Assembly: GCA_021847485.1 (NCBI GenBank)
Contig: JAJZRA010000012.1
Location: 1-37,859, forward strand
Source: a bacterium
Lineage (GTDB): Bacteria; Elusimicrobiota; Elusimicrobia; Elusimicrobiales; UBA9959
Length of the DNA stretch: 37,859 bases
Direction: 5' to 3'
Below are positions 2,167 to 33,780 of this stretch, piece by piece. Within the stretch, counting starts at the first letter, position 1. Each line of letters opens with the position of its first letter. The notes under the pieces are model-generated. The model made no database searches, was not told where the DNA came from, and saw nothing but the letters and a program-made list of their open reading frames with translations. The translations under genes were made by a program, and so were the position numbers.

Positions 2167-2200
2167 TTTAGGTTAGGAACAACACTTAAGGAGAAAGATA

Positions 2201-3844: not shown

Positions 3845-3854
3845 GATCAGTATC

Positions 3855-3898: not shown

Positions 3899-3919
3899 GA
3901 GCCCCGGGACGGGAGGTGA

Positions 3920-4036: not shown

Positions 4037-4067
4037 ATGCGTGGCAGACCGGCGCCCGGCTCTTTAC

Positions 4068-4073
4068 TATAAT
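4068..4073 (+). promoter_or_regulatory. consensus -10 box placing the start site at the ATG
   Basis: A perfect TATAAT lies 6 bases before the ATG at 4080, so transcription should begin at or beside the start codon (leaderless mRNA). No Shine-Dalgarno sequence or clear -35 is visible. Confidence 0.55.
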
Positions 4074-4079
4074 ATCCCC

Positions 4080-4835: not shown

Positions 4836-4916
4836 TTTTTTAGTAGAATAATTGGACTCTCTTATCACTGCCGGTGGGGGCCGGCGGCGGCTCACATATA
4901 ATCTAAGGAGGACAGC

Positions 4917-5489: not shown

Positions 5490-5499
5490 AGGGGATATT

Positions 5500-6048: not shown

Positions 6049-6078
6049 TCTTAGAATAAGGGTTACAAGGAGGGAATT

Positions 6079-6947: not shown

Positions 6948-6965
6948 GCTCACCAGGAGGAAACC

Positions 6966-7127
6966 ATGAAGAAATACGTCTGCAAGCTTTGCGGCTACGT
7001 CTACGATCCCGCCGTAGGGGACCCGGACAATAACGTCCCCCCCGGCACGGCCTTCGACAAGCTGCCGGAGGCCTGGGTCTGCCCCGTCTGCGGCGCCGGC
7101 AAAGAGGAGTTCGAGCCCGAGAACTAG
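6966..7127 (+). CDS. rubredoxin
   Basis: A 53-residue electron carrier with one FeS4 site. [15 protein letters not shown] gives C6-x2-C9, and [13 protein letters not shown] gives the second C-x2-C pair. The conserved aromatic and GT-x-F positions of rubredoxins are also present ([13 protein letters not shown]). CAGGAGG lies just upstream of the ATG. It ends the defence operon and is the natural electron donor for rubrerythrin and superoxide reductase encoded upstream. A bidirectional terminator follows. Confidence 0.95.
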
Positions 7128-18537: not shown

Positions 18538-18558
18538 CGTTATTCTCCGTAGGAAAGA

Positions 18559-19074
18559 TCAGCCGCGCTTGCGCTTGCCGCCGGCGAGGCGGGCGGAGGC
18601 GTTCTTCACGGCCTCCACCTGCTTTACGTAGCCGGTGCAGCGGCACAGGTTGCCGTCCAGGGCCTTGCGGATCTCGGCCTCGGTCGGGCGCGGGGCCCGG
18701 TCGAGCAGGGCCTTGGAGGACAGGATCATGCCGGGGATGCAGAAGCCGCACTGCACGGCGCCGGCCTCCACGAAAGCCTCCTGCAGCGGGTGCGGGTCCC
18801 GCACGGTGCCGAGCCCCTCTATCGTGGTGAGCTCCCCCCCGTGCGCGGCCACGGCCGGCACCAGGCAGCCCAGCACGGCCCTGCCGTTCAGGATGACGGT
18901 GCAGGAGCCGCAGTCGCCGGTATCGCAGCCCTTCTTGGTGCCTTTCCAGCCGTGCCGGCGCAGCGCGTCCAGCAGGAACTCTCCGTTCTTCACGGACAGC
19001 TCTTTCAGCTCCCCGTTGACGGTCACGGTTATCTCGAAATTGCCTTTCTTGGTCTCAAGGATGTCTTTCTTCAT
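18559..19074 (-). CDS. molybdenum hydroxylase 2Fe-2S subunit, set 1
   Basis: The 171-residue small subunit passes electrons from molybdenum to FAD. The plant-ferredoxin-like domain has C50-x4-C55-x2-C58 and C70; the helical domain has C109-x2-C112 and C144-x-C146 in NLCRCTGY. All eight cluster ligands are present. The N-terminus carries about 12 extra residues and the C-terminus a basic tail (GGKRKRG). It starts 8 bases after the repaired end of the FAD gene and is followed by the large subunit after 21 bases. Confidence 0.95.
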   Translation of the reverse strand: MKKDILETKKGNFEITVTVNGELKELSVKNGEFLLDALRRHGWKGTKKGCDTGDCGSCTVILNGRAVLGCLVPAVAAHGGELTTIEGLGTVRDPHPLQEAFVEAGAVQCGFCIPGMILSSKALLDRAPRPTEAEIRKALDGNLCRCTGYVKQVEAVKNASARLAGGKRKRG

Positions 19075-19082
19075 GGTTCACC

Positions 19083-19890
19083 TCAGATAGCGGCCGCGAA
19101 GCGGGCGAGCAGGCTGGCCGACGCCGCGGAGACGTAGTCCCCGGCGCGCGCGGCGTCGAGGTCGGCCGCGAAGGCCCTGGCGGGGTCCTCGCCGGCCAGC
19201 AGGGCCTTCTCCGCCGCGGGGGGCGCGGAAGGGCCTGGGCGACAGCGCGCCCACGGCGACGCGGGCCCGCGAGAGCGCCTTGCCCCTGCGCTCGGCCGCG
19301 AAGAACAGCGTTACGTAGGATTCCCAGCTGGAGTCGGTCTTCGCGAGTTTCACGAACTCGCACTTCCACTTCTTCGTCGCCGCCGGGATCACGATCTCGG
19401 TGATCAGGCAGTTGGAGCCGGGGCGCAGCAGCGGGGCGGCGGCATAGAGCTCCTCCAGCCCGAGCAGCCTGGAGCCGCCCTTGGCCTGCACCCTGACCCT
19501 GGCGTCGAGGCCGAGCAGCACGACCGGGAAGATATTGAAGGAATGCGGCCTGGCGACGTTCCCTCCGATCGTGGCCATGTTGCGGATCAGCTGGCTGGAG
19601 CACTTGGCGGCGGCCGCCGAGACGATGCCGCCGGCCCAGCCGCGGCAGAGGCGGTCGCGGTCGATCTCGTCGAACGTGGCGCCGGCCCCGATCACGAGGT
19701 TCCCGCCCTGCAGCTTTATGCCCTTCAGCGGGAGGTCCTTCAGGTCCAGGTAGGTCTCGACGGAGTCCGGCAGCGTCTTGGCCACCAGCGTGCCGCCGGC
19801 GAGGGCCAGGGCCTTGTACTTCCGGTCGAGCAGCAGCGCGAGCGCGTCCTTCACCGAGGACGGGCGGGCGTAATACTTGATGTTCTTCAC
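19083..19890 (-). CDS. molybdenum hydroxylase FAD subunit, set 1, with a one-base frameshift
   Basis: The FAD-binding subunit passes electrons to the final acceptor. LAGGTLVAKTLPD and RNMATIGGNVARPHSFN are the two FAD-binding motifs. The start is a GTG at 19890 with AGGAGG 7 bases upstream. After about residue 222 the frame changes: read as given, the protein ends at 19078 in an Arg/Gly-rich tail unlike the family. Removing one base from the six-G run at 19218-19223 restores a normal C-terminal domain (FRAPAAEKALLAGEDPARAF, then a helix ending LLARFAAAI) with a stop at 19083, 268 residues in total. This may be a sequencing error, a recent mutation, or slippage. The rest of the gene looks intact. 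Confidence 0.85.
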
Positions 19891-19916: not shown

Positions 19917-19933
19917 GGCCCGCCGGGCGGGCC
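19917..19933. repeat. perfect GC hairpin between the TldE-like gene and set 1
   Basis: GGCCCGCC, a single G, and GGCGGGCC form an 8+1+8 inverted repeat that overlaps the end of the TldE-like stop codon. There is no T tract, so it is not a standard terminator. It sits in the largest gap (42 bases) of the long operon and could protect or cleave the mRNA. Confidence 0.55.
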
Positions 19934-21648
19934 TACTTAGCGAAATAGGGATGCGGCAGGTACGGCGGCCGGTCCGGCTTGGCTTCTGTCGGCTTCAGCT
20001 CCATCTCCTGCACCAGCAGCGCCTCGGGCGCCGCTATCGAGGCCGGCACGAGCCCGCGGTTATAGTAGAACGGCCCGGCCTGGTAATAGTTGTAGACCTG
20101 GTCCTTATCGGAGGCCAGCGTGATGTCGCGCAGCGCGCGGAAGGTGACGCCGGACCATTCCGAGGGGCCGAGCGGCGTCTCGGAGCCGTCTTTGACCGAG
20201 ACCTTGTAGGCTATGACCGGGTCGGAGAGCAGCTCGCCGTACTCCCTGGAGGTCTCCGGGTCCACGCGGCGCACCAGCACCGCGTAGTCCAGCCCGTTCT
20301 CCGCGGCCAGCTCCAGCAGCTTCTTCTTCAGCTCGGCCTCCGGCGCGCGCTTGGCCGGCAGGAAAGAAAAGAAGACGTTGCCGGGGCGGGGCGTCGGGAA
20401 CTCGGCGACCGAGCCGCGCGCGTGGCCGTTGGAGGCGCGGAACTCCTTGACGGGGGAGCGGTCCATGTAGAAGTTGACCAGCTTGCCGCCGCGGACCAGC
20501 TCCAGCGGCGCGGGGCGGACGCCCTCGTTGTCCACCGGGTAGCTGCCGGCGAGCGCCGTGCCGTCGTAGGAGTTTTTCAGCGGGTCGTCGGTCACGCCGA
20601 CGAAGGCCGGCAGCACGCGCATGCCCAGCTTCTTGGTCAGCTCGCCGGAGGCGATGTAATAGCGGGTCCAGTCGTCCTTGTCGGCCCACGGCGCGCGCGG
20701 GAAAGAGACGTTGGCCACGAACAGCTGGTTGAGGAACTCGGCCGCGGCCTGCCCCTCGAAGAGCACCGGCCCCAGGTAGACCTCGGCGGTGGAGGCGTCC
20801 ACCAGATAGCTCATCTCCCGGGCGAAGGCCTCCGTCCGGGCCGCGAGGTCCGCGTCGGAGGGGACCGCGGCGAGCGAAGGCCAGAGGAGGTCCTCGCTGT
20901 CCGAGATGCGCAGCCCGGTCCTGTCCTGCACGGTGGCGCGCACGCTCAGCGTGACGTCGTCCCAGCCGCGGCGGAACCGCGTGCCGCCGCTGTCGGCGAA
21001 ACGGGCGGTGCGCATAGCGAAGCCGAACGAGACCTGCGAGTCCTGGACGGCGGGGTATTTGCGGAAGACCGCCGACAGCGCCTTCACGCGCTCCCGCCAG
21101 GCCGGGGCGTCGAAGGCTTCGGACGGGCGGGCGTCGTCGAAGAGGCGCACGCGGGGCTCCGGCGAGAGGTCGCCGTAGATCTCGGAGATGTTCTTCTTGG
21201 TCCGGTAGGCCTTCTTCTGCGAATACTTCTCCAGGGCCTTCTTGTACGCGTCGTCGCTCAGCGACCAGAGGCCGAAGCGCAGCGCGTCGTAGCCGGCCTC
21301 CTCGCTCAGCTGGGACCCGGCCGGGGAATAGGAATTGAAGTCCTGCCCGACGTACCAGGTATTGTCGAACGCGGCGCTGCCGACGCGCACGTCGGCGGCC
21401 ACCCGGCGGGAGACGTCGGAAGAATCGTCCAGCAGCGAGCCGAAAGAGGCCGACAGCGAGGTCTCGGTGGAGTCCACCACGTAATAGGAAACGTAGTAGG
21501 GCCGGTCCAGGCTGTCCATCTTAAGCCGCCGGACCGTGCGGTCCAGTTCGTCGGTCATGGCCTTGAGGACGCGGTCCCCGGGCGCGGCGGCGCGCGCCGG
21601 GGCGAGGACGGCGAGGAGGCAGGCGGAGGCCAGCAGGAGGCGTTTCAT
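19933..21648 (-). CDS. secreted TldE/PmbA-like protein lacking the metal site
   Basis: The 571-residue protein begins with a signal peptide (MKRLLLASACLLAVLAPARA) and is otherwise a TldD/TldE-family protein. It shares the layout of the gene upstream, including the SPVKEFRASNGHARG stretch, equivalent to SPIRNFPESNGHGRR there. Where the active partner has HExxxH, this one reads GQAAAEFLNQLFV, so both His ligands are lost, and the C-terminal Cys ligand is also missing. In E. coli, TldD (active) and TldE (inactive) form a heterodimeric protease, so this is probably the non-catalytic subunit of an exported version. Its ATG follows the TldD-like stop after one base, so the two are probably made together. 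Confidence 0.85.
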   Translation of the reverse strand: MKRLLLASACLLAVLAPARAAAPGDRVLKAMTDELDRTVRRLKMDSLDRPYYVSYYVVDSTETSLSASFGSLLDDSSDVSRRVAADVRVGSAAFDNTWYVGQDFNSYSPAGSQLSEEAGYDALRFGLWSLSDDAYKKALEKYSQKKAYRTKKNISEIYGDLSPEPRVRLFDDARPSEAFDAPAWRERVKALSAVFRKYPAVQDSQVSFGFAMRTARFADSGGTRFRRGWDDVTLSVRATVQDRTGLRISDSEDLLWPSLAAVPSDADLAARTEAFAREMSYLVDASTAEVYLGPVLFEGQAAAEFLNQLFVANVSFPRAPWADKDDWTRYYIASGELTKKLGMRVLPAFVGVTDDPLKNSYDGTALAGSYPVDNEGVRPAPLELVRGGKLVNFYMDRSPVKEFRASNGHARGSVAEFPTPRPGNVFFSFLPAKRAPEAELKKKLLELAAENGLDYAVLVRRVDPETSREYGELLSDPVIAYKVSVKDGSETPLGPSEWSGVTFRALRDITLASDKDQVYNYYQAGPFYYNRGLVPASIAAPEALLVQEMELKPTEAKPDRPPYLPHPYFAK

Positions 21649-21649
21649 G

Positions 21650-23350
21650 TCAGTTCCCCCCTTTGCCGCCGTCCGTGAACGGAGGCTTCAGGACCGGCGG
21701 GCGGGCGTTGGATTTCTGGACCTTCTCGGATTCCATCTCCGAGAACAGCAGGCTCGGAGAGACGGCCGAGACCGGCACCCAGCCGGACTCGGCGCCGCAG
21801 GAGCCGTCGAAGACGGCCGGGTCGTCGCCGGTCTCCACGATGCGGGAGAAGGTCTGCAGCGGCGTGCCTATCAGGTTCAGCCCGCGCACCGCCTCGTCCG
21901 GGCGGCCGTCGGGGAAGACCTTGTAGGCCATCGTCGCCTGCACGGAAAAGCTCTGCGGCAGAGAACGCTCGGTGATCGTGAAGCCGCCGGAAATGTCGGT
22001 GACGATGAGGCCGTAGGGCTTCTTGTCCTTCTTAACCTCCTCTATCAGCCTCTCGCGCAGGGCCTTGTAGGGAACGGCCCGGCTCGAGACCACGATCAGG
22101 TTGCCCTGCCTGGCGACGGCGCCGTGCCCCTCGGAGCGGCGGCCGTGGCCGTTGGATTCCGGGAAATTGCGGATCGGGGACCGGCCCATCAGGAAGCCTT
22201 TCAGCACGCCGTTCTCCACCAGTACGGCCCGGCGGGCCGGGACGGCCTCGTCGTCGTAGCGGTAGTAGCCGCGCAGGAACTGGCCTTTCACGTCGTAGAG
22301 TGTCGGGTCGTCGTAGACGCTGAGGAAGGCGGGCATGATCTGCTGGCCCACCTTCTTGGCGAAGGTCTGGCCGGACTCCTCGCTCTTCTGCCGGTGGCCC
22401 TCCAGGCGGTGGCCGAGGATCTCGTGGAAGAAGACCGCGGCGGCGCGGTTCTGCAGGATGACCGGCCCGGAGTAGGGCTGCTCCGGAGGGGCCGCGCGCA
22501 GGGCCGCGAGCTCCGCGATGGAGGCGTCGATGTCCTTGGCGATCACGGCCTCGGCCGGCATGTCCGAGGGCTTGTCCGAATCGTAGATCTTCATGCGCGA
22601 CAGCTCCATGCCGTCGGCCGTGCGCGTGTAGAGGGAATAGATCAGGCGCACGTAGGTGTTGCCGGTGACTATGGAAGAGCCCTCGGAGTTGACCATGTAG
22701 CGGTTATTGGTCTCGACGCTGAAGCGCAGGTAGGAGTCGTAGATGAAATCGTATTTCTTGAAGCGTTCCGAGAGCCGGCGCAGCATGTTCCTGAAGGCGG
22801 CCTTGTCGAAGGCCGGGAAGGACGCCGGGCCGTAATAGACGCTGGCCGGCGACGCGGAGAAGTCGTCCGACTTATCCTCCTCCTCGGCGGTCACGCTCTT
22901 GTTCATCCTGACCTTGGCGTACCGGTCGAGGGCGGTCTTGTAGGCGCGGTCGGTCAGTCCCCAGATCTCCGCGCGCAGCGGGGCCGGATCGTCCTCCACC
23001 GGCAGGGAGGCCAGTTCCTGCTTCTTGGAGTTGGTGTAGGCGTAGTCGCCCTTGACCTCGTGGGTGTTGTCCAGCGCCGGAGAGCCGACGCGGGCGTCCA
23101 CGTCCAGCTGCCGGGCGCGGCGTGAATCCTCGCTGAAGACCGCGCCTTCGGAGGCCGAGACGCCGTAATAGCGCTTGTCGTAGACCTCGTAACCCAGGTA
23201 GTAGAGGGGCGCGGACTCGGCGTGGGCCAGCGTCGAGGTGGAGCGGGCGAGCTCCGCCTTCAGGGCGGCCAGCAGCGGGTCGCTCTGGGCGGCCTGCGCC
23301 GCGGCGGCGCAGGGGGACAGGAGCAGCGTGAGGGTAAGGATCTTCTTCAT
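21650..23350 (-). CDS. secreted TldD-like zinc metalloprotease
   Basis: The 566-residue protein has a signal peptide (MKKILTLTLLLSPCAAAAQA) and a TldD-type protease core. The HExxxH motif is intact (H309, E310, H314 in FFHEILGHRLEGHR), and C518 in DGSCGAESGWVPV matches the third zinc ligand of E. coli TldD. TldD/TldE proteases work in the cytoplasm in E. coli; here both members carry export signals. I chose ATG 23350, which begins the signal peptide and has a CGGAG box; an upstream GTG-type start would bury it. It follows the set 2 FAD gene by 17 bases. Its target is unknown. Confidence 0.88.
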   Translation of the reverse strand: MKKILTLTLLLSPCAAAAQAAQSDPLLAALKAELARSTSTLAHAESAPLYYLGYEVYDKRYYGVSASEGAVFSEDSRRARQLDVDARVGSPALDNTHEVKGDYAYTNSKKQELASLPVEDDPAPLRAEIWGLTDRAYKTALDRYAKVRMNKSVTAEEEDKSDDFSASPASVYYGPASFPAFDKAAFRNMLRRLSERFKKYDFIYDSYLRFSVETNNRYMVNSEGSSIVTGNTYVRLIYSLYTRTADGMELSRMKIYDSDKPSDMPAEAVIAKDIDASIAELAALRAAPPEQPYSGPVILQNRAAAVFFHEILGHRLEGHRQKSEESGQTFAKKVGQQIMPAFLSVYDDPTLYDVKGQFLRGYYRYDDEAVPARRAVLVENGVLKGFLMGRSPIRNFPESNGHGRRSEGHGAVARQGNLIVVSSRAVPYKALRERLIEEVKKDKKPYGLIVTDISGGFTITERSLPQSFSVQATMAYKVFPDGRPDEAVRGLNLIGTPLQTFSRIVETGDDPAVFDGSCGAESGWVPVSAVSPSLLFSEMESEKVQKSNARPPVLKPPFTDGGKGGN

Positions 23351-23367: not shown

Positions 23368-24210
23368 TCAGCGGGCCAGCGACAGGAGGGCCCGCTCCAG
23401 CAGGACGCCGCACATCTCGCGGCGGTACTCGGCCTCGCTGCGGGCGTCGGTTATCGGGGAGACCTCGGCCTTGACCCGGGCCGCGGCCTCCACGGCGGTG
23501 CCGGCGGAAAGAGGCCGGCCGGCCAGCCAGGCGGAGACGCCCGCGGCGTACAGCGGCACCGGCGCCACCGAGCCCAGCGCCACCGAGGCGCTCTTCACGG
23601 CTCCACGCTCCAGTTCGGCCGCCACGGCCACGGCGGCCTTGGAAATACCGAAATAGGAGCGCGGCCCCAGCTTCAGGTAGGCCCCGGCGTGCCGGCGTTT
23701 CGGGACTTCGAAAGCGGTGATCAGTTCGTCCCTGCGCAGCGCGGTACGCTTAGGGCCGGTGAAAAGGTCTTTCAGCGGCAGGCGGCGGCGCTTGCCCTTC
23801 AGTTCCAGGCGGACGAAAGCGCCCTCGGCCACCAGCGCGCAGACGCCGTCCGCGCAGGGGCTGGCGTTGCCGGCGTTGCCGCCCAGCGTGGCCATGTTGC
23901 GCAGGCTGGGGCTGGCGAAATGGGGTATGGCCGAAACGAGGACCGGGCACCAGCGCCTGACGGCGGCCGAGCGCTCGAGGCCCGAGATCTTCTCCCCCGC
24001 GCCTATCACCAGCGCGGCGGCGGTCTCCTCCACGCCCGCGAGTTCCGGCAGGTCGCTTATGTCCACCCAGCACTCGGACCGCTCGACCCCGGCGTTGTCC
24101 GCCGTGACGATGTCGGTGCCGCCCGCCAGGTAGCGGCGCGCGGCCGGCAGGCCCGGCAGGGTCTTCCAGAGCTCTTTCAGCGAGGCGGGCTTTACGATGA
24201 TGTCAGGCAT
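23368..24210 (-). CDS. molybdenum hydroxylase FAD subunit, set 2
   Basis: The 280-residue FAD subunit has YLAGGTDIVTADN and RNMATLGGNAGNASPCAD, the two FAD contacts, and an intact C-terminal domain (SVALGSVAPVPLYAAG, then ITDARSEAEYRREMCGVLL). This C-terminal ARSEAEYR segment is typical of xanthine dehydrogenase FAD subunits. Its start overlaps the 2Fe-2S gene by 8 bases, so the two are translationally coupled. It is clearly different from the set 1 FAD subunit, so the two sets are separate enzymes, not a recent duplication. Confidence 0.93.
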   Translation of the reverse strand: MPDIIVKPASLKELWKTLPGLPAARRYLAGGTDIVTADNAGVERSECWVDISDLPELAGVEETAAALVIGAGEKISGLERSAAVRRWCPVLVSAIPHFASPSLRNMATLGGNAGNASPCADGVCALVAEGAFVRLELKGKRRRLPLKDLFTGPKRTALRRDELITAFEVPKRRHAGAYLKLGPRSYFGISKAAVAVAAELERGAVKSASVALGSVAPVPLYAAGVSAWLAGRPLSAGTAVEAAARVKAEVSPITDARSEAEYRREMCGVLLERALLSLAR

Positions 24211-24679
24211 TTTTCTCGTCGCGGGCCTTCTCCACGGCCGACAGCACCTTCTCGTAGCCGGTGCAGCGGCACAGGTTGCCGGTAAGCTCCAGCTTGATGT
24301 CCTCCAGCGTGGCGCGCGGCTTGCGGCGCAGCAGGGCCTCCGAGGCCACTATGAGCCCGGGCGTGCAGAAACCGCACTGGACGGCGCCTTCGGCCATGAA
24401 CGTCTTCTGCAGCGGGTGGAGCCCGCCGGCCTTCCCCTTGATGCCCTCTATCGTCACGAGGTCCTTGCCGTGCAGCTGCACGGCCATCATCAGGCAGGAA
24501 TTTACGGCCTTCCCGTCCACCAGCACCATACAGGCCCCGCATTCCCCCTCGCCGCACCCTTCCTTGGTGCCTTTCAGGCCGAGGTCCTCGCGGATGAACT
24601 CAAGCAGAGAGCGGGAGGATACGACCTCCCGCTCCACTCGCTCTCCGTTGACGGTGCAGGCCAGACGGAAACTCTTCAT
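24203..24679 (-). CDS. molybdenum hydroxylase 2Fe-2S subunit, set 2
   Basis: This 158-residue subunit has all eight ligands: C42-x4-C47-x2-C50 and C62 in the ferredoxin domain, then C102-x2-C105 and C137-x-C139 in the helical domain (VQCGFCTPG, NLCRCTGY). It matches XdhC/CoxS-type small subunits closely. It starts one base after the stop of the CsgG-barrel gene, which separates it from its large subunit. Confidence 0.95.
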   Translation of the reverse strand: MKSFRLACTVNGERVEREVVSSRSLLEFIREDLGLKGTKEGCGEGECGACMVLVDGKAVNSCLMMAVQLHGKDLVTIEGIKGKAGGLHPLQKTFMAEGAVQCGFCTPGLIVASEALLRRKPRATLEDIKLELTGNLCRCTGYEKVLSAVEKARDEKNA

Positions 24680-24680
24680 G

Positions 24681-25874
24681 TCAGAACTTGCTGCCCACGC
24701 CGAGCACGAACCTGGAGCCGGTGAACGTGACGTTGTTGGTCACGCCGGCGTAGCCGCCGTTGAACGAGGTCGAGTTCATCTCGGCGCGCCATTCCAGGAA
24801 GAACGTGGTGCTGTCCATGTTGAAGCGGACGCCCACGGGGACCCTGAACATGAAGCCGACGGCGGTCTCGTTGAGCAGGGCGTTGCGGACGTCCCGCAGG
24901 ACCGAAGACTTGATGTTGTTGATCGACAGGCCGAGGCCGAGACCGAAGTAGAACTGGGCCTTGGTCATGGTCCTCAGCAGCAGGTCGCCGCTCATGCCGA
25001 CCGAGGTCACGTCCAGGTAGCCGGCGGGGATCACGGCGTTGTAAAGGATGGTGTTGTTCACCACGGTGCCGCGCTGGGAGTCTATGTAGTGCCTCGAGAC
25101 GGAGAACTCGAAGTCGCCGCCGAACGCGCCGTTGCCGTAGCCGCCGACGCGGAAGCCGATCGGGCCGGCGCCGCTGGTCAGCAGGCCGGTCTGCTTGATG
25201 TTGCTGCGGTAGGCGTCCCAGGTGATGTCGGTGGTCTGGGTGCCGGCGCCTGCGATCACGTCGAAATAACCGTATTCATTGGGGCCGCGCGCCCGGGCGG
25301 CCTGCTTTACCATGGGCTGCGAGGGCTGCTGGTAGGCCTGGGGTTCGGGCTGCTGGACCTGCTGCGCCTGCTGGGGAACGGCGTTATCGTCGCCGATCCA
25401 GTTCTTGTCCAGCGTGACCTGCGAGGCGCCTATGGCCTGCGCGGTCTCGGTCTTGATCAGGCGGGCGTTGACCTCTATCTGGCCGCCGGAGGTCTGCACC
25501 AGCGTGCCGGTGATTATGGCCTCGACGCCCAGCAGCTTGCCCAGCTGCTGGGTGGAGTTGGCGTCCATGATGCCGGAGGACTGCAGCTTCAGCTCGTTCA
25601 TCACCTTGTCCAGCGCGCTGCGCTCGATGACCTCGAACTTATGCATGTTGATCATCTTGACCGCGAGGCGCTCGGCGATGACCGAGCCGTCCTTGCTGGC
25701 CTTGTCCTTCGTGTCGGCGTAGGAGAACGGGATGATCGCTATCTTCTTGCCCTGCACCGAGGCGCCGGCCTCGGTCAGCTCGCGGGCGAGCTGGTCGTAC
25801 TTGTCCTCCGCGCGGGCCCCGGCGGCGAGCGCCAGCAGCAGCACGGCGAACAACGCTTTGGTCATGTTCTTCAT
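24681..25874 (-). CDS. CsgG/FlgO-like domain fused to an outer-membrane beta-barrel
   Basis: The 397-residue protein has a signal peptide (about 1-22) and a CsgG/FlgO-like domain at about 40-158 (KKIAIIPFSY, FEVIERSALDKVMNE, LGKLLGVEAIITGTL). A Gln/Pro-rich linker follows at about 165-190. From about residue 200 there are alternating strands with Gly and aromatic residues, ending in GVGSKF; a terminal Phe is the usual signal for barrel assembly. I infer an outer-membrane anchor with a periplasmic CsgG-like domain. I do not know this combination from a described system. It lies between the set 2 large subunit and 2Fe-2S genes with gaps of 11 and 1 bases, so it is co-transcribed with a cytoplasmic enzyme. 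Confidence 0.78.
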   Translation of the reverse strand: MKNMTKALFAVLLLALAAGARAEDKYDQLARELTEAGASVQGKKIAIIPFSYADTKDKASKDGSVIAERLAVKMINMHKFEVIERSALDKVMNELKLQSSGIMDANSTQQLGKLLGVEAIITGTLVQTSGGQIEVNARLIKTETAQAIGASQVTLDKNWIGDDNAVPQQAQQVQQPEPQAYQQPSQPMVKQAARARGPNEYGYFDVIAGAGTQTTDITWDAYRSNIKQTGLLTSGAGPIGFRVGGYGNGAFGGDFEFSVSRHYIDSQRGTVVNNTILYNAVIPAGYLDVTSVGMSGDLLLRTMTKAQFYFGLGLGLSINNIKSSVLRDVRNALLNETAVGFMFRVPVGVRFNMDSTTFFLEWRAEMNSTSFNGGYAGVTNNVTFTGSRFVLGVGSKF

Positions 25875-25885
25875 TAGTGTCCCTC

Positions 25886-28186
25886 TTAACCCTTCCTGAT
25901 CTCTTTCCAGATCTTTTCCGGCAGCAGCGGCACGGACCGCACCCTGGCTCCGCAGGCGTTGCGGACCGCGTTGGCCACCGCCGGGGCCACCCCTATGAGC
26001 GGCACCTCGCCCATGCCCTTGGCCTTATAAGGGCCTTCGGCATAGGGCTTTTCTATGAAAGTTATATCATATTCGGGTTTATCTGCGGTAGTGGCGATGA
26101 CGTAATCGGTGAAGTTGGGGTTCACCATGATGCCGTTCTTGTAGACCAGGTTCTCGTAGACGGCCCAGCTCATGCCCTGCAGGATGCCCCCCTGCGCCTG
26201 GCCCATGGCCAGCCCGGGGTTGACGATCCTGCCCACGTCGTAGGCCGCCCAGACCTTGCGCACCTTCAGGACGCCGGTGCGCAGGTCCACGTCCACCTCG
26301 GCGGCGTCCGCGGAGTAGGAATAGATGACGTAGGCGTCGCCCTGGCCGTCCTCGTTCTTGAACGAGGTGCGCGGCGCCGTGTACCAGCCCTGCTCGCACA
26401 TCTTCAGGCGGCGGCTCCAGCAGCCGGAGACCACCTTCTTGAATTCCACCGACTTGGCCCCCATCCTGAAGACGCCGTTGGCCGCGACCATGGGCAGCGA
26501 GGCGTCAGCCCCCTCCGCGAGGAGCAGGTCGTAGGCGGTCTTGAAGATCCTCTCGCGCAGCGGCGTGGCGGCGTCGATGATGGCGTTGCCGCTCATCAGC
26601 GTGGTGCGGCTGGCCACGGTGGGGCCGGAATCCGGCACCTTGGAGGAGTCCACCTCCTCCACGCGGACGGCCGCGTAGGGCGCGTTGAGCGTCTCGGCGG
26701 CGATCTGCGCCAGCACGGTCAGCGCGCCCTGGCCCATTTCGGTATTGCCGACGCTGACCCCGACGGAGGAATCCTTGTAGATGTTCACCATCGCGCCGGC
26801 GCGGTCCAGGTAGCGGCCGCCCGCGCCCAGGCCCACGCCGTAATAAGCCACGGAGAAGCCGATGCCGGAGGCCACGTCCCCCTTTACGGAGGGGCTCTTC
26901 CATTTCCTGTCCCACCCGGAGCGCCGGCGCACGGCCTGCGCTATCTCCGCCAGGCCGCAGCTGGAATTGAGCTTCTGGCCGGTCACGGTCCTGTCGCCGG
27001 GCTTGAGCAGGTTCTTCAAGCGGAACTTCAGCGGGTCCATCCCGACCTTGGCGGCGAGCTCGTCGATGAGCGACTCCTGCGCGAAGCTGATCTGCGGCTG
27101 GCCGAAACCGCGGAACGCGCCGCAGGGCACCTTGTTGGTGGCCGCGGCGTAGGTCCGGATGTCGACGTTGGGGACCTTGTACGGGCCGGCGGCGTGCACG
27201 GTGCCGCGCCACAGCACTATCGGCGACAGCGTGGAATAGGCGCCGCCGTCCAGCACGTACTTGACGCGGCAGGCGGTGATGCGCCCGCTCTTGTCGGCGG
27301 CGTAGGCCACCCGGGCCCAGCCCGGATGGCGCTTGGACATGCTCTGGAAATCCTCTTTACGCCCGTAGATCAGCCTGACCGGGCGGCCGACCTTGGCCGC
27401 GCAGATGGCGGCGTGCGAGGCGACGAGCGCCGGCACGTCCTCCTTGCCGCCGAAGCCGCCGCCGGTGACCGTCTGCAGGATCTTGATCTTGTGGTAGGGC
27501 TGGGCCAGCGCGGCGGCCACGGCGTCGATCACGTAGAACGGGCACTGCGTGGTGCTGTGCACCGTCATGCCGCCGCCGGGCTCCGGCACGGCTATCGCGC
27601 CCTGGGTCTCGAGGTAGGCGTGCACCTGGTAATTGGTGCTGAACTCCCCCTCGACGGTATAGGCGGCCTTCCTGAAAGCCTCGTCCACGGAGCCGTTCTT
27701 TATCCGGTAGGTGGAGAAGACGTTGTCCTCGCCGTGCACCCTGGGCGCGCCCTTCTCGAGCGCCTCCAGCGGGTCCTCCACGAAGGGCAGCTCCTTGTAG
27801 CGCAGCTCGACGAGCGCGGCGGCCCTGCGGGCGGCCTTCTCGGACGCGGCTACGACCAGAGCGACGGTCTCGCCGGCGAAGCGGGCCTCCTTCTCCGGCA
27901 GGAACGGGTAGTCCTGCATGACGACGGGCCATTTATTGACGCCCTTGATGTCCTTGTAAGTGACCAGCGCCGCGTAGCCCGGCACCTTGCGGGCCTTAGC
28001 GTCGGAGATGCCGTCTATCCGGATATGGGGCCTCGGCGAGCGCACCGCGGCGGCGTAGAGCATCCCGGCGAAGTCCCGGTCCGCGGCGTACCGCGCGGAA
28101 CCGACGGCCTTGATCTCGGCGTCCTTCCTGGGCATAGACTTCCCGACGTAAGAGAGCTTTTCCATGGTCTTCCCGGTCCTTTTCAT
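25886..28186 (-). CDS. molybdenum hydroxylase large (molybdopterin) subunit, set 2
   Basis: The 766-residue large subunit looks like a canonical xanthine dehydrogenase-family member: GGGFGGKED, GAFRGFGQPQISFAQE, GNTEMGQGALT and the catalytic KGMGEVPLIG with presumed base Glu727. The FRGFG loop is nearly the one of true xanthine dehydrogenases, making a purine substrate plausible but not certain; 4-hydroxybenzoyl-CoA reductase-like enzymes share parts of this pattern. The ATG at 28186 overlaps the XdhC stop. A second ATG at 28165 begins MEKLSYVGKSMPRKDA, the usual family start, and has an AGGA-like box, so it may be the true start. Assembly needs XdhC, encoded just upstream. Confidence 0.92.
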   Translation of the reverse strand: MKRTGKTMEKLSYVGKSMPRKDAEIKAVGSARYAADRDFAGMLYAAAVRSPRPHIRIDGISDAKARKVPGYAALVTYKDIKGVNKWPVVMQDYPFLPEKEARFAGETVALVVAASEKAARRAAALVELRYKELPFVEDPLEALEKGAPRVHGEDNVFSTYRIKNGSVDEAFRKAAYTVEGEFSTNYQVHAYLETQGAIAVPEPGGGMTVHSTTQCPFYVIDAVAAALAQPYHKIKILQTVTGGGFGGKEDVPALVASHAAICAAKVGRPVRLIYGRKEDFQSMSKRHPGWARVAYAADKSGRITACRVKYVLDGGAYSTLSPIVLWRGTVHAAGPYKVPNVDIRTYAAATNKVPCGAFRGFGQPQISFAQESLIDELAAKVGMDPLKFRLKNLLKPGDRTVTGQKLNSSCGLAEIAQAVRRRSGWDRKWKSPSVKGDVASGIGFSVAYYGVGLGAGGRYLDRAGAMVNIYKDSSVGVSVGNTEMGQGALTVLAQIAAETLNAPYAAVRVEEVDSSKVPDSGPTVASRTTLMSGNAIIDAATPLRERIFKTAYDLLLAEGADASLPMVAANGVFRMGAKSVEFKKVVSGCWSRRLKMCEQGWYTAPRTSFKNEDGQGDAYVIYSYSADAAEVDVDLRTGVLKVRKVWAAYDVGRIVNPGLAMGQAQGGILQGMSWAVYENLVYKNGIMVNPNFTDYVIATTADKPEYDITFIEKPYAEGPYKAKGMGEVPLIGVAPAVANAVRNACGARVRSVPLLPEKIWKEIRKG

Positions 28187-28986
28187 TCGGTGACGCGCAT
28201 ATGCGCGCCGTCGCGCTTGTAGTGCAGCTTGATGACCTCGGCCAGCACCGAGACGGCGATCTCCCCCGGGGCCTTGCCGCCGAGGTTGAGGCCTATCGGC
28301 GAATGCACGCGCCTGTCCTTCAGCGGGTAAAGCTTCTTCCTGGCCAGCAGGCGGTAGATCTCCCGCACCTTAGGCGCGCTGCCGATCATGCCGATATAAG
28401 GGGCCTTCGTGCGCATGACCTCCTCCAGGCATTCCTTGTCCAGCGCGTGGCCGCGCGTGACGATGACGACGTAGGTGTCCTTGTCCACGCCGGCGGCCCT
28501 GACCGCCTTGTGCGGGAACTCGTTGATGATCTTCAGCGCCTGCGGGAAGCGCTCGGGGTTGGCGAACTCGGTCCGGTCGTCGGCCACCATGTAGGGGTAG
28601 CCGGCCAGCCGGCAGGCCTCGGCTATCTTGACCCCGACGTGCCCGCCGCCGAGGATCAGGACCTTGAAGGGCGTCCTGTAGACGTCTATGTAGACCTCCA
28701 TGTCGCCCATGCAGATCATGCCGGTGTTGCCGCCCGGCTTCAGCGCGAAAGTGAACTTGCCGCCCTGGCCGGCGGCTATGCACTCGAGGGCCTTCTTTAT
28801 GGTCAGCGCCTCCATGGCGCCGCCGCCGACGGTCCCCTCTATGGAGCCGTCCTCGTAGACCAGCATCTTCGCGCCGGCCTCGCGCGGCGTGGAGCCGCCC
28901 ACCGAGATCACCGTGACGAAGGCCGCGGCGCGGCCGGAATCGATGGCCTCGGCCAGCATCTTAACGAGGTTCTTTTCTTCTCTCAT
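28183..28986 (-). CDS. xdhC: XdhC/CoxI family molybdenum cofactor chaperone
   Basis: XdhC-type proteins bind the molybdenum cofactor, help give it its sulfido ligand, and insert it into the apo-enzyme. The 267-residue protein has the N-terminal XdhC/CoxI domain (VISVGGSTPREAGAKMLV, EGTVGGGAMEA) and a C-terminal Rossmann domain (LILGGGHVGVKIAEACR, VVIVTRGHALDKECL, YIGMIGSAPKV). It overlaps the set 2 large subunit by 4 bases. A possible -10 (TAAAAT, 28999-28994) lies 7 bases before its ATG, so it may also have its own leaderless transcript. It probably serves both enzyme sets. Confidence 0.93.
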   Translation of the reverse strand: MREEKNLVKMLAEAIDSGRAAAFVTVISVGGSTPREAGAKMLVYEDGSIEGTVGGGAMEALTIKKALECIAAGQGGKFTFALKPGGNTGMICMGDMEVYIDVYRTPFKVLILGGGHVGVKIAEACRLAGYPYMVADDRTEFANPERFPQALKIINEFPHKAVRAAGVDKDTYVVIVTRGHALDKECLEEVMRTKAPYIGMIGSAPKVREIYRLLARKKLYPLKDRRVHSPIGLNLGGKAPGEIAVSVLAEVIKLHYKRDGAHMRVTE

Positions 28987-28993
28987 GGATTCA

Positions 28994-28999
28994 ATTTTA
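28994..28999 (-). promoter_or_regulatory. possible internal -10 box before xdhC
   Basis: TAAAAT on the minus strand lies 7 bases before the xdhC ATG and overlaps the end of the cyclase gene. There is no good -35. It could give a leaderless transcript inside the long operon. Confidence 0.25.
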
Positions 29000-30553
29000 C
29001 CTTAATTTCACGGGAGCCAGCTTAAAGAGCTCCAACGGCTCGGCCTTGCCCTTGAGCGGGACCCGCCCGAGAGGCTCGAAGGAGAAGGCCCCTCCGAGCG
29101 ACCCGCGCGCCCGCGCGGCCGCCGCCCCGCTGATCACCACGTCCGTGCCGAAATCCTTAGTTTTGGCCTCGAGGCGCGCGGCCACGTTGACCGTATCGCC
29201 GATGAAGGTGTACTCGAGGCGGGAGTAGGTGCCGATATTGCCCGCCACCAGCCGCCCGGAATGGATCCCCACCCCGAACTCCACCGGGAACGGCGCCGCG
29301 CCGGAGGCGTTGAATTCCGCCAGCGCGGCCCGCATGGCCGCGGCCGAGCGCACGGCGTCGGCGGCGTAGTCCGAGGAGCCGAGCTGCGGGGCGTAGACCG
29401 CCATGACCGCGTCGCCGATGAACTTGTTGATCACGCCGTTGTGGGCCGTGATCGCCGGCGCGATATAGCCGAAATAGGCGTTGAGGAACTCCACCAGGGC
29501 CGCGGCGTCCAGCTTCTCGCTGAGCGGCGTGAAGTTGCGGATATCGCAGAACATCACGGCGGCCTCGATGTCCTCGCCGCCCAGGTTGACCTTCTTGTTC
29601 TTGAGCAGTTCGCGGGCGATCTCGATAGACATGTACTTGCCGAAGGTGTCCTGCAGTTCCTCGCGCTCCTTCAGGCCGTCGACCATCTCGTTGAAGCCGG
29701 CCTTGAGATGCGCGATCTCGTCGGAGAAGAAGATATGGGTCTTCACGAACTCGCCGCCCGCCACGCGGCGCATCTTGCCGATGAGGCCGTTCAAGGGCAC
29801 CTGGATGCCGTTGTAGACCGTGGAGACCCCGGTCAGCAGCAGCACGCCGCAGAGGAACAGCATGAGGCCGAAATCCCCGGCGAAAGCCTCCCACGGAACG
29901 CGCTTAACGAAGAGCGTGTAGATCAGGACGAACGGGATGACGGCGAAGCCGATCACGAGCGAGGAGATCTTCAGGTAGATCGGGATGGAGAAGCCCGGCC
30001 GCAGGCGGGACAGCTCCTCCGGGGAATAGAGCGTCACGATAAGTTTCTTCTGCCTGGAGAGATGGGAATCGATGTGCGCGACGAGGAGCGCGGCCTGGCC
30101 CGCGAACGCCACGCCCGACGCCGCCCAGGCCTGCCACGGCAGCGCGCCGAACAGCAGCACCGGGAAGCCCAGCGCCAGCGCCTGCGATATTACCAGCATC
30201 AGGAAAGCGTCGCGGTAGATGTTGCCCAGCCGCACGCGGATCCTGGCCTTCAGCTTCTCGTCGGGCTTACGGACATAGCTGTAGGCCGGCCGCGCCCAGA
30301 GATAGACCATCAGGACCATCGCGAGGAACGGCAGGCCGATGTTCAGGCCCTGGTGCCTGGGCCCCATCTGGACGTTCAGCGGTCCGCCGCCCATGTCCGG
30401 ATCGCCGGCCAGGGCGACCATGGTCACGCGGTAGAACGAGGAATAGATGAAGCCGAGGAACAGCGGGATGTACAGGAGGTTGAAGAACTCCTTCAGCTGC
30501 CGCTTCCGCTCCGCCGTTTCAGGATCGCCGAACAGTACGATATCGTCTTTCAT
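28997..30553 (-). CDS. membrane-bound class III adenylyl cyclase
   Basis: The 518-residue protein has about six hydrophobic segments in residues 25-250, a HAMP-like linker (about 250-300, LNGLIGKMRRVAGGEF), the FGKYMS joint, and a class III cyclase domain (about 325-510). Both metal aspartates are present (D337 in FCDIRNFTPL, D381 in NKFIGDAVMAVY). K377 is the adenine-selecting Lys, and N456 and R460 in DTVNVAARLE are the transition-state residues. cAMP production is therefore expected. Its start at ATG 30553 has a GAGGTG box and overlaps the permease stop. It lies inside the nucleobase operon, ten bases before xdhC. The ligand of the membrane part is unknown. Confidence 0.92.
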   Translation of the reverse strand: MKDDIVLFGDPETAERKRQLKEFFNLLYIPLFLGFIYSSFYRVTMVALAGDPDMGGGPLNVQMGPRHQGLNIGLPFLAMVLMVYLWARPAYSYVRKPDEKLKARIRVRLGNIYRDAFLMLVISQALALGFPVLLFGALPWQAWAASGVAFAGQAALLVAHIDSHLSRQKKLIVTLYSPEELSRLRPGFSIPIYLKISSLVIGFAVIPFVLIYTLFVKRVPWEAFAGDFGLMLFLCGVLLLTGVSTVYNGIQVPLNGLIGKMRRVAGGEFVKTHIFFSDEIAHLKAGFNEMVDGLKEREELQDTFGKYMSIEIARELLKNKKVNLGGEDIEAAVMFCDIRNFTPLSEKLDAAALVEFLNAYFGYIAPAITAHNGVINKFIGDAVMAVYAPQLGSSDYAADAVRSAAAMRAALAEFNASGAAPFPVEFGVGIHSGRLVAGNIGTYSRLEYTFIGDTVNVAARLEAKTKDFGTDVVISGAAAARARGSLGGAFSFEPLGRVPLKGKAEPLELFKLAPVKLR

Positions 30554-31788
30554 GCCCACCTCAGGAAAACCCAGTATATTATCGCATTTATCAGCGTCAG
30601 CGGCACGCCCGCGCGGGCGAACTCCAGGAAGGTGACGGTCTGCCCGGCCTTGCGCTCGGCGTTCTGGACGATGATGACGTTGCTGGCCGCGCCGAGGAGG
30701 AACATGTTGCCGGCCACCGTCGAGGCGGCCGCCAGCGCCATCAGCGCGGGCGTGCCGGCCCCGGCGTGCTTCAGGACCGGCAGGTACAGGGCGACCAGCG
30801 GCACGTTGGAGATCAGCTGGCTCAGCGCGAGGCTTACGGCCATCACCGGCCCGACGCCGGAGATATCGGCCCCGGAGCGGGCGATGAGCCCCTGGAAGAG
30901 CCCGGTGTCCCAGACCGCGCGGGTCAGGACGAACATGCCGGCGAAGAAGGCCAGGGTGGCCCAGTCCACCCCGCGGACCAGCTCGGCCCGGCGCGGGCTG
31001 AGCAGCAGGCCCGGCGCGGCGGCGGCCAGCGCTATCCACGTCAGGCGGAAATCGAGCGACGGGAACAGGGACACGGCGGCGATCTTGGCCCCTATAGCCG
31101 CAGCCAGCACCCAGGCCGTGGCCCTGGCCAGGCGGGCGAGACTTCTGTCCTTCACCGGCTCCTGGGAGTGGACCAGGGCAGCGGAGCCGAACTCGTCCCG
31201 GTAGAGCCGCCGGACCACCAGGAAGACCGCCCCGAGGTTTAGCAGCGTCGGCAGGGCCAGGTACCTGAAGAAGGTCAGGAACGGCGCGGCGACCTCCCCC
31301 TTCACGGCCACGAGCAGGTTCTGCGGGTTGCCTATCGGGCTCATCGCGCTGCCGACGGTGATGGAGAAGGCCAGCGCGAGCAGCAGCGCCTTGGGGGAGA
31401 TGGAATGCTTGCGGGCCAGCAGCAGCGCCACCGGTGTGCCGACGATGGCCAGCGTGTCGTTCATCAGGAAGGCCGAAGCCGTACCCATGAAGAAGACCAG
31501 CGTCAGCAGCAGCCCCTCCTCGGTACGGGCGCGCTTGAACACCTCGAACTTGGCGTGCGCCAGCCAGCCGCTCAGCTCGAAGACCTGCCCGGCCGCGAAC
31601 ATCCCGAAGAGGAAGAGCATGACGTCCGGGTCCGCGGCGCGCAGCGCGGCCGCCGGAGAGATGTCTCCCGACAGCAGCACGGCGGCGGCGCCGGCGCACA
31701 TGACCTGCCAGATCTGCAGGCGGAAAGCCCCGACCTGCCGGACCGCGGTCAGGACGAACACTGCGAGCAGGACGAGGACGGGGAACAT
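30550..31788 (-). CDS. ArsB/NhaD-superfamily (SLC13-like) anion permease
   Basis: The 412-residue protein has about ten to eleven membrane helices and the two inverted-repeat signatures of the ion transporter superfamily: FMGTASAFLMNDTLAIVGTP and SPIGNPQNLLVAVKG in the first half, and SQLISNVPLVALYLP with LGAASNVIIVQNAER in the second. Members move arsenite, citrate, dicarboxylates or similar anions. Because it sits between MocA and the cyclase in a purine-type operon, it may import or export a catabolic anion such as urate or a ring-opened product, but sequence alone does not show this. It starts 5 bases after mocA and overlaps the cyclase by 4 bases. Confidence 0.83.
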   Translation of the reverse strand: MFPVLVLLAVFVLTAVRQVGAFRLQIWQVMCAGAAAVLLSGDISPAAALRAADPDVMLFLFGMFAAGQVFELSGWLAHAKFEVFKRARTEEGLLLTLVFFMGTASAFLMNDTLAIVGTPVALLLARKHSISPKALLLALAFSITVGSAMSPIGNPQNLLVAVKGEVAAPFLTFFRYLALPTLLNLGAVFLVVRRLYRDEFGSAALVHSQEPVKDRSLARLARATAWVLAAAIGAKIAAVSLFPSLDFRLTWIALAAAAPGLLLSPRRAELVRGVDWATLAFFAGMFVLTRAVWDTGLFQGLIARSGADISGVGPVMAVSLALSQLISNVPLVALYLPVLKHAGAGTPALMALAAASTVAGNMFLLGAASNVIIVQNAERKAGQTVTFLEFARAGVPLTLINAIIYWVFLRWA

Positions 31789-31793
31789 CCGGG

Positions 31794-32396
31794 TCAGCCG
31801 GCCTTTACGAGGGCCTCGTAGTCCCCGGGCGTGTCGAAGTCCCTTATTATCTCAGGGTCCTCCACGTCCAGGTCGGCCGCGCGGACCGACGGGTGGTGAG
31901 TGACCCAGTGCAGACCCTCGTCGAGCGGGCCCTCGAAGCAGAGCCGCTTATGCGCGGCGGGGATGATTATCGGGTGGCCGCGCTTCAGGCGGGAATCGGA
32001 GGCGCGGAAGGCGCGCGGGATGACGATCGCGTCCCTGCGGGAGGACCAGAACTCCATTATCCTGGCGTAGGTGGAGGGCGCGATCGTCGGCTGGTCGGCG
32101 AGGCAGACCATATAGCCTTCCGAGGCGGGCGAGGCCGCGGCGAGGCCGGCGCGGAGCGAGGAGAGCTGCCCGTCCTCCGGCCTGGGATTGACCGCTACCT
32201 TCTCCCCGGCGGGCCGCCAGGCGGCGAGCACCTCGGCGGAGGCCCGGCCTAGCACGACCACCCGGTCCTCCACGCCGGCCGCGCGCAGCGCGGCGCAGAC
32301 GTGTTCGATGAAAGGGAGCCCGCGCCACGGCAGCAGGGCCTTGGGCCGTCCCATCCGGGACGATTCACCCGCCGCCAGGACGATGGCCGAGAGCAT
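31794..32396 (-). CDS. mocA: MocA-like molybdenum cofactor cytidylyltransferase
   Basis: The 200-residue nucleotidyltransferase has the N-terminal motif VLAAGESSRMGRPKALLPW (residues 6-24), CLADQP with the metal Asp, and RGHPIIIP. This is the MocA/MobA-like family. Its neighbours are molybdenum hydroxylases, which in many bacteria use the cytosine-dinucleotide form of the cofactor made by MocA, so this activity fits better than MobA. It lies 10 bases after the amidohydrolase and 5 before the permease. Confidence 0.88.
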   Translation of the reverse strand: MLSAIVLAAGESSRMGRPKALLPWRGLPFIEHVCAALRAAGVEDRVVVLGRASAEVLAAWRPAGEKVAVNPRPEDGQLSSLRAGLAAASPASEGYMVCLADQPTIAPSTYARIMEFWSSRRDAIVIPRAFRASDSRLKRGHPIIIPAAHKRLCFEGPLDEGLHWVTHHPSVRAADLDVEDPEIIRDFDTPGDYEALVKAG

Positions 32397-32406
32397 AGCC
32401 GCCGGC

Positions 32407-33780
32407 CTACTTCAGGCCCGCCCTGCGGTACAGAGCGGCCGCGGCCCTGGTCGCGCGCGCCGTCACCCGGCGCTCGTCCTCGAGGGCCAGGCGCCCGTCC
32501 TTCACGGCTATCCGGCCGTTGACGACGGTGTACTTGGTCCGGTGGGAGGCGCCGCAGAACAGCAGCGAAGCCAGCGGGTCGGACTTGGAACCGATATAGT
32601 CGAGGCCGCTCACGTCGAAGACCGCGATGTCGGCGGCCTTGCCCGGCTCGATCGAGCCGATGTCGGAGCGTCCCAGCACGGCGGCGCCGCCGCGCGTGGC
32701 CAGCCGCAGCGCGTCGCGCGCCGGCATGCCCTCCACGCCGGCCTTCACGCGCTGCACCAGCATCGCCTGCCGCACCTCGCCGAGCATGTCGGAGGCGTCG
32801 TTGGAGGCCGAGCCGTCCACCGCAATGCCCACCGGCACCTTGTGCTCCATGAACATCCGGATCGGCGCGATGCCGGAGCCCAGGCGCAGGTTGGACGACG
32901 GGCAGTGCGCGACGCCGGTGCCCGTCTTCCCCATCCGCTTAGCCTCGGCCTCGTTGAGGTAGACGCAATGGGCGAACCAGGCGTTGCCCTCCTCCACCCA
33001 GCCCACGCTCTCCATGTACTCGAGCGGGCGCATCTTCAGCGTCTTGCGGCAGAAATCGTCCTCGTCCTTCGTCTCCGCCAGGTGGGTATGCATGCGCACG
33101 CCCCAGCGCCTGGCCATCTCGGCGGTGATCTTCAGCAGCTCGGTGGTCACGGAGAACGGCGAGCAGGGCGCCAGCACCAGCCGCGTCATGCCGAACTTAC
33201 CGCCGTCGTGGTACTTGTGCACGAGGCGCTCGCAGTCCTTCATTATATGGTCCTCGGTCTGCACCACGCTGTCCGGCGGCAGGCCGCCCTTGGAGCGGCC
33301 GCGCGACATCGAGCCGCGCGTCGGGTGGAAGCGCATCCCCACGCCGCGCGCGGCCGCCACCTGCGCGTCTATGAAATTATCGCTGCCTTTCCTCGGGAAC
33401 AGGTAGAGGTGGTCCGTGCTCGTGGTGCAGCCGGTCAGCAGCAGCTCGCCCAGGCCGGCCTGCGTGCTGGCGTAGACGGCCTCCTCGTCGAGATGCTTCC
33501 AGATCTCGTAGAGATAGACGAGCCAGTCGAAGAGCTTGGCGTCCTGCACCTTCGGCAGGTTGCGCGTCAGCGTCTGGTAAAGGTGGTGGTGGGTGTTCAC
33601 CATGCCGGGCATCACGACGCAGCCTTTCGCGTCGATGACACTGTCGGCCTTCACCCGGAGGCCTTTGCCCACTTTCTTTATTTCGGGGCCTTCGATATAG
33701 ACGTCACCGCCCTTGATCTCGCGGCCCGCGTCGTCCATCGTGGCCAGCACCTCGGCGTTCTTTATCAGCAGCGTTTTCAT
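32407..33780 (-). CDS. 8-oxoguanine deaminase-like amidohydrolase
   Basis: The 457-residue metal-dependent hydrolase has the metal site of the cytosine/guanine deaminase group: H64-x-H66 in VNTHHHLYQT, H233 in MHTHLAETKDE with E236, H271 in FAHCV and D322 in VDGSASND. Long conserved stretches, such as QDAKLFDWL, STDHLYLFP, LAPCSPFSV and THHHLYQTLTR, match 8-oxoguanine deaminases, which turn 8-oxoguanine into urate; SsnA and atrazine-type hydrolases are more distant relatives. It is the first gene of the 14-gene unit. ATG 33780 has an AGAGGT box 6 bases upstream; an ATG at 33810 would lie at or before the expected transcription start. A related substrate cannot be ruled out. Confidence 0.88.
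   Translation of the reverse strand: MKTLLIKNAEVLATMDDAGREIKGGDVYIEGPEIKKVGKGLRVKADSVIDAKGCVVMPGMVNTHHHLYQTLTRNLPKVQDAKLFDWLVYLYEIWKHLDEEAVYASTQAGLGELLLTGCTTSTDHLYLFPRKGSDNFIDAQVAAARGVGMRFHPTRGSMSRGRSKGGLPPDSVVQTEDHIMKDCERLVHKYHDGGKFGMTRLVLAPCSPFSVTTELLKITAEMARRWGVRMHTHLAETKDEDDFCRKTLKMRPLEYMESVGWVEEGNAWFAHCVYLNEAEAKRMGKTGTGVAHCPSSNLRLGSGIAPIRMFMEHKVPVGIAVDGSASNDASDMLGEVRQAMLVQRVKAGVEGMPARDALRLATRGGAAVLGRSDIGSIEPGKAADIAVFDVSGLDYIGSKSDPLASLLFCGASHRTKYTVVNGRIAVKDGRLALEDERRVTARATRAAAALYRRAGLK

Follow-up and report, generated by a model that had tools for sequence, protein, structure and literature searches.

The window, a stretch of 37,859 nucleotides from a member of the Elusimicrobiota, carries at 24681-25874 on the minus strand a gene that encodes a protein of 397 amino acids (ATG start, stop codon included). 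The protein joins an LpoB/FlgO-like domain to a predicted outer-membrane barrel. The gene separates a xanthine-dehydrogenase-type large-subunit gene (25886-28186) from a 2Fe-2S subunit gene (24203-24679), with gaps of 11 bases and 1 base, respectively. Its coordinates, gaps, and position between these two genes agree with those given by an earlier sequence-only reading of this DNA. An antisense frame on the plus strand (24261-25877, 538 aa) is longer than the fusion gene and covers it; long antisense frames are common in GC-rich DNA. The minus-strand frame is the real one, because homologues match this frame, with 18 loci matching the fusion protein at 47-75% identity and relatives that include Elusimicrobia MAGs. 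At all 49 loci read, which were chosen because they match, each half of the fusion finds its counterpart in one frame, and in one of them (G152) two stops lie inside the match. The plus-strand frame was also translated and searched as a candidate gene. Its matches on two other contigs (C53 and C99) are antisense artefacts, because the minus-strand search finds FlgO-domain paralogues at the same places.

The minus-strand genes are ordered as amidohydrolase, MocA-like protein, permease, cyclase, XdhC, molybdenum (Mo) subunit, fusion protein, 2Fe-2S subunit, FAD subunit, TldD, and TldE-like protein. Downstream of the last gene are a second FAD/2Fe-2S/Mo set, a gene of the glutamine-synthetase family, and TolC-MacAB genes, all on the minus strand. 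The amidohydrolase (32407-33780) is of the 8-oxoguanine deaminase type (NF006055, 642 bits, cut-off 532). As it passes this cut-off, oxidised purines are the likely substrate, and the cluster probably handles such compounds. The MocA-like NTP transferase (31794-32396) matches PF12804, and its TIGR03310 score of 136.1 bits is below the cut-off of 186.45. It is followed by a CitMHS-type permease (30550-31788; PF03600, 1.1e-44), a membrane adenylate/guanylate cyclase (28997-30559; PF00211 above cut-off, HAMP below cut-off), and an XdhC-type cofactor insertion protein (28183-28986; PF13478, PF02625).

The large (Mo) subunit of copy 1 (PF02738, PF20256, PF01315) is nearest to TIGR03196 in NCBIfam (535.5 bits, below the cut-off of 783.65). 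The 2Fe-2S subunit (PF01799, PF00111) and the FAD subunit (23368-24210; PF00941, PF03450) complete this copy. The second hydroxylase set (16228-19890) consists of FAD (19078-19890), 2Fe-2S (18559-19074), and Mo (16228-18537) subunits, and its Mo subunit is nearest to NF043082 XdhA (703.6 bits, below the cut-off of 780). Neither Mo subunit reaches the cut-off of any NCBIfam subfamily. Between the two sets are a TldD-type peptidase (TldD1, 21650-23350; PF19289) with a signal peptide and an HEILGH motif, and a TldE-like partner (TldD2, 19933-21648; PF19289) with a signal peptide and no HExxxH. The TldD/TldE family is usually described as cytoplasmic; the pair at 19933-23350, with signal peptides on both members, is an exported version.

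Other features of this region were also observed. The membrane cyclase is kept in most of the loci read, a hint that purine use may be linked to cyclic-nucleotide signalling. A phosphofructokinase-like gene of about 370 aa, recognised by eye, lies between the amidohydrolase and mocA in 21 loci (L004, L005, L008, and L010 among them) and is absent from the window. On the strand opposite the purine operon, positions 1762-7127 (plus strand) encode an oxidative-stress cluster of Rrf2, hybrid-cluster protein (Prismane), rubrerythrins, redoxin, desulfoferrodoxin, and rubredoxin.

The fusion protein begins with a signal peptide at about residues 1-23 (25806-25874), whose cleavage site was judged by eye. 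No lipobox cysteine is present; residues 1-30 contain no Cys, so there is no lipoprotein signal. The N-terminal domain (about residues 24-162; 25389-25805) is of the LpoB/FlgO/CsgG/TolB-N-like type and bears out the CsgG/FlgO assignment made in the sequence-only reading. PF17680 (FlgO) matches at residues 28-157 with 37.3 bits (cut-off 22.6) and is matched by 19/19 orthologues (E up to 1). PF03783 (CsgG) matches at residues 73-127 with 37.7 bits (cut-off 20.8), a match that spans only positions 47-100 of the 210 in the profile. PF13036 (LpoB) scores 18.8 bits, under its cut-off of 22.3. The domain is followed by the Q/P linker that had been noted, at about residues 163-198 (25281-25388), which is 47% Q+P and has pLDDT below 50 at residues 160-192. 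The linker measures 32-43 residues with 33-47% Q+P in the 19 orthologues, and YQQP repeats are frequent.

The C-terminal part, about residues 199-397 (24684-25280), is predicted to be an eight-stranded barrel of the OmpA/OmpW type with a terminal Phe. Sequence profiles match it in some orthologues, namely OMP_b-brl in 4/19 (best 2.3e-5) and PagL in 10/19 (best 3.5e-4), both with E up to 1. A PDB sequence search with the orthologue alignment gave zero matches at E 0.1. The C-terminal Phe is found in 18 of 19 aligned orthologue rows; the remaining row (L011) is shortened in the alignment, and its full frame ends in Met.

Two AlphaFold2 models were built with 19 closely related sequences (the orthologues) as input, and both contain eight long strands. 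This upholds the earlier proposal of an outer-membrane barrel of about eight strands ending in Phe. Model 1, of the window protein, has a mean pLDDT of 67.8, most of the barrel half being at 80-90, with strands at residues 201-221, 224-246, 251-264, 287-301, 306-327, 333-352, 356-372, and 379-396. Model 2, with the orthologue at L017 as target, has a mean pLDDT of 72.8. Across the two models, the barrel is mostly at 80-95 and the N-domain only at about 50-80. The barrel of model 1 matched OmpA (Z 16.0), OmpW (15.6), and NspA (15.4) by fold (VIA), and OprG was also listed (14.6). The matches of model 2 were headed by the designed barrel 6x9z (Z 16.3), with OprF (15.5), OmpA (15.4), OmpW (14.8), and AlkL (12.0) also listed. 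The N-domain of model 1 matched LpoB (VIA; 4q6l, Z 15.2 over 132 residues, rmsd 2.9), GNA1162 (11.1), and TolB (10.9). Model 2 returned the same three proteins (LpoB, Z 15.1 over 128 residues, rmsd 2.2; GNA1162, 11.4; TolB, 11.0).

The inward and outward faces of the barrel were assigned from strand alternation rather than from model coordinates. On this assignment, conservation in strands 3-7 is higher on the inward face (mean entropy 0.61-0.72 bits vs 1.02-1.68 for the outward face). The faces of strands 1 and 2 are not cleanly separated, and strand 1 is reversed (0.84 bits for the nominally outward face vs 1.52 for the inward one). R242, E256, R301, R350, E361, R363, N319, and N367 are invariant in 19/19 orthologues. 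Hydrophobic residues make up 17-39% of the inward face in strands 3-8, where invariant charged residues also occur. OprG, a barrel of the OmpW family, is described as largely hydrophobic inside, with conserved prolines at a lateral opening (PMC2993939). A closed, OmpA-like barrel is therefore favoured, and these sequence patterns suggest an anchor rather than a pore. A porin was likewise put aside, given the narrow eight-stranded barrel and its charged, invariant interior. Conservation is far higher in the N-domain than in the barrel (mean entropy 0.38 vs 1.20 bits), which suggests that the conserved job is periplasmic and fits a conserved partner.

The position of the gene was followed in 39 genomes with a strong full-length match from family f1, the family of the window as grouped in the genome search. 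The fusion adjoins a xanthine-dehydrogenase-type gene set in 34/39 of these genomes, keeping its place beside xdhC or the Mo/FeS genes whichever enzyme set comes after. The next gene upstream encodes the Mo subunit in 22 genomes and is xdhC in 11. The 34 include G034, where the fusion starts near a contig end and the 2Fe-2S gene lies downstream. In G238, the Mo subunit and the fusion are separated by a short FlgO-domain gene. Only TldD1 is found downstream in G002 and G016, in which the hydroxylase link is missing, and the fusion adjoins neither a hydroxylase set nor TldD in G026, G247, and G204. At the 11 g1 loci where the fusion follows the Mo subunit, tblastn distances were 15-26 bases upstream and 5-52 bases downstream. 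The neighbours at L058, L059, L065, and other loci of lower GC were read by tblastn, and at L141 and L144 the contigs are short and the match is close to one end. As a separate observation, the fusion at L014, L018, L019, and L053 is followed by a different hydroxylase set that adjoins MoeB/ThiF-like and MoaD-like genes (by eye).

Outside f1, 0/8 fusions lie beside hydroxylase genes, and the neighbours are housekeeping-like (DUF520, pyridine-nucleotide oxidoreductase, SMC, Thi4, glycosyltransferase). The pairing with xanthine dehydrogenase genes that the sequence-only reading proposed to look for recurs within the family and is absent from the eight fusions outside it. Because all eight outside fusions have unrelated neighbours, it can be concluded that the fusion is phylum-wide, while its operon link is real, lineage-specific, and not obligatory. 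The same reading had named a lineage-wide paralogue with no consistent neighbourhood as evidence against itself. The fusion does belong to a phylum-wide paralogous family, but the f1 orthologous group has a consistent neighbourhood. Further fusions away from the cluster, outside the 39, are the divergent f1 paralogues L067 and L068 and three barrel fusions in G036 and G276. In a quick tree supported by SH-aLRT only, a branch at 99 sets the eight sequences from outside f1 apart from the rest, and the linkage needs 5 changes. This pattern fits a single gain of the operon link with later losses, with long branches that leave the deep order unsure.

Conversely, 22/27 Mo-subunit loci with a readable downstream neighbour have the fusion protein. 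Four Mo-subunit loci go straight to the 2Fe-2S gene without it (L061, L062, L064, and L065; genomes G005, G021, G033, and G036). In a fifth genome (G023), a PF02397 bacterial sugar transferase apparently follows the Mo gene and precedes the 2Fe-2S gene, with its own gene divided between two contig ends (L063, 11638-11904; L066, 10569-11672). G005, G021, G033, and G023, all incomplete MAGs, have only N-domain matches elsewhere in the genome, and G036 has two divergent barrel fusions elsewhere. Because these five enzyme loci lack it, the fusion protein is not required for the cluster.

The FlgO-type N-domain belongs to a wider family, with a match in 59/61 relatives and about ten copies in many genomes of the window's family, and it is fused to tails of 0 to about 580 residues. 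A simple lipobox pattern was found in 1/51 barrel-bearing frames vs 8/37 frames without a barrel match, in a comparison where related loci partly overlap and the pattern misses several likely lipoproteins recognised by eye. The sole barrel-bearing frame with the pattern (L019) also has a signal-peptidase-I-like site by eye. As the lipobox is rarer in barrel-bearing frames, these sequences fit a barrel that stands in place of a lipid anchor. Tandem arrangements were also seen: at L134 and L136, the barrel fusion is immediately preceded by a short protein with a FlgO domain (about 200 aa), and at L148 two divergent barrel fusions lie in tandem, remote from hydroxylase genes.

The sequence-only reading took the protein for a possible envelope port or stress sensor. 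As a port, it would be an OmpW/AlkL-like barrel that helps the substrate of the operon across the outer membrane. The fold matches do include OmpW, OprG, and AlkL, one family keeps the gene fixed within a catabolic cluster, and OmpW-family barrels are known from degradation operons, such as AlkL for alkanes and NahQ/DoxH for naphthalene (PMC2993939). However, OmpA, OprF, and NspA match equally well or better, purines are polar, and the narrow barrel has invariant Arg, Glu, and Asn on its inward face instead of the hydrophobic interior and lateral-opening prolines of OprG. The eight unrelated neighbourhoods outside the family and the five enzyme loci without the protein also speak against a port, which is therefore unlikely. 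A passenger gene is a possibility to be taken more seriously, although still a minority view. In this scenario, an envelope gene entered an insertion-tolerant slot in the family ancestor and has been passed down since, functionally unconnected with the purine enzymes. The four enzyme loci without the protein, the sugar transferase that seems to occupy the same slot in G023, the three genomes where the protein has no hydroxylase or TldD neighbour, and the housekeeping-like neighbours outside the family all agree with it. Against it, the protein stays with xdhC even if the Mo, FeS, and FAD genes that follow differ or are missing (the 11 loci with xdhC directly upstream), and most loci do not retain further neighbours from the window, such as the MacAB-TolC genes.

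It is also conceivable, but improbable, that the protein is a partner of TldD/TldE, in an envelope module (fusion, TldD1, TldD2, and sometimes MacAB-TolC) whose genes are intermixed with those of a cytoplasmic purine module. TldD1 lies downstream in 22/39 loci, and TldD1 and TldD2 both have signal peptides. In G002 and G016, the fusion is followed by TldD1-TldD2 and then by OEP-HlyD-ABC-FtsX, with no hydroxylase genes on that strand; a glutamine-synthetase gene intervenes before OEP-HlyD-ABC-FtsX in G016. Nevertheless, no TldD1 is nearby in 17/39 loci, and genomes across the order have the TldD pair but not the fusion protein. A part in CsgG-like or flagellar (FlgO-like) machinery, to which the CsgG and FlgO Pfam matches might point, is highly improbable. 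It is largely ruled out by anatomy and neighbours, as the barrel strands do not interrupt the CsgG domain but make up a C-terminal domain of their own, a lipid anchor is lacking, and no flagellar or curli genes are among the neighbours scanned, which are hydroxylase, TldD, and transporter genes.

The reading preferred here, with slightly better than even confidence, is that the fusion is a barrel-anchored, LpoB-like periplasmic docking protein of the outer membrane that is co-expressed with the purine enzymes. The domains, fold, strand count, linker, and gene order are computed directly; from them we infer the outer-membrane location, the anchoring role, the co-expression, and the periplasmic partner. 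The eight-stranded barrel would fix the protein in the outer membrane and replace a lipid anchor, and the Q/P-rich tether of 32-43 residues would let the LpoB/FlgO-like domain reach into the periplasm. There, the N-domain may bind a conserved periplasmic partner or itself. In f1, co-expression would extend to the enzymes that act on oxidised purines and, in 22/39 genomes, to the exported TldD/TldE pair. A bolder and quite doubtful extension is that this barrel-tethered LpoB counterpart couples envelope or cell-wall upkeep to the breakdown of oxidised purines, where the same transcript supplies the docking protein and often the exported TldD/TldE, so that 8-oxoguanine clearance and envelope repair would be switched together.

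An LpoB/FlgO-type domain whose outer-membrane anchor is an integral barrel instead of a lipid would be of interest in the Elusimicrobiota, whose envelope is hardly studied, as is an envelope protein that a whole family keeps among cytoplasmic genes for purine oxidation. If the operon link is functional, nucleobase metabolism would be connected with the cell envelope; if not, a metabolic operon has clearly captured an envelope gene. Among the open-licence papers listed for Elusimicrobia with xanthine dehydrogenase or outer-membrane barrels, and for CsgG, FlgO, LpoB, and beta-barrels together, none describes this fusion.

Among known systems, LpoB shares the fold of the N-domain (Z about 15). 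LpoB is a lipoprotein of the outer membrane, and its globular domain is carried by an unstructured stretch of 54 residues (PMC9593243, PMC6220978). Since LpoB is built in this way, the same plan of outer-membrane anchor, flexible tether, and globular domain recurs in the fusion protein in reverse order, with a C-terminal barrel as anchor instead of the N-terminal lipid. LpoB activates PBP1B and docks on its UB2H domain, whereas UB2H is not consistently present in genomes with the fusion protein. It was found in 5/18 g1 genomes with the protein, and in 2/5 without it, and these counts do not generally point to PBP1B as the partner; the genome of the window itself is positive (C19, 35.1 bits).

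FlgO, the Vibrio H-ring protein, is an outer-membrane lipoprotein (PMC7990780). Its profile PF17680 is above cut-off in the fusion protein, and an outer-membrane association is presumed to be shared, but the fusion protein has no lipobox, a C-terminal barrel, and non-flagellar neighbours. The curli secretion channel CsgG has transmembrane strands inserted in the CsgG domain and forms a ring-shaped pore. The fusion protein resembles it in PF03783 over residues 73-127 and differs from it in its self-contained eight-stranded C-terminal barrel, its lack of a lipid anchor, and the absence of curli genes among the neighbours scanned. Barrels of the OmpA/OprF/NspA type have the fold, strand number, and charged interior in common with the fusion protein, which instead places its barrel at the C-terminus and a periplasmic domain at the N-terminus, and in which Pfam finds no OmpA-type peptidoglycan-binding domain. 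Finally, OmpW and AlkL are, like the fusion protein, eight-stranded barrels encoded in catabolic gene clusters, but their interior is hydrophobic where that of the fusion protein is charged, and the fusion protein carries an additional N-terminal domain.
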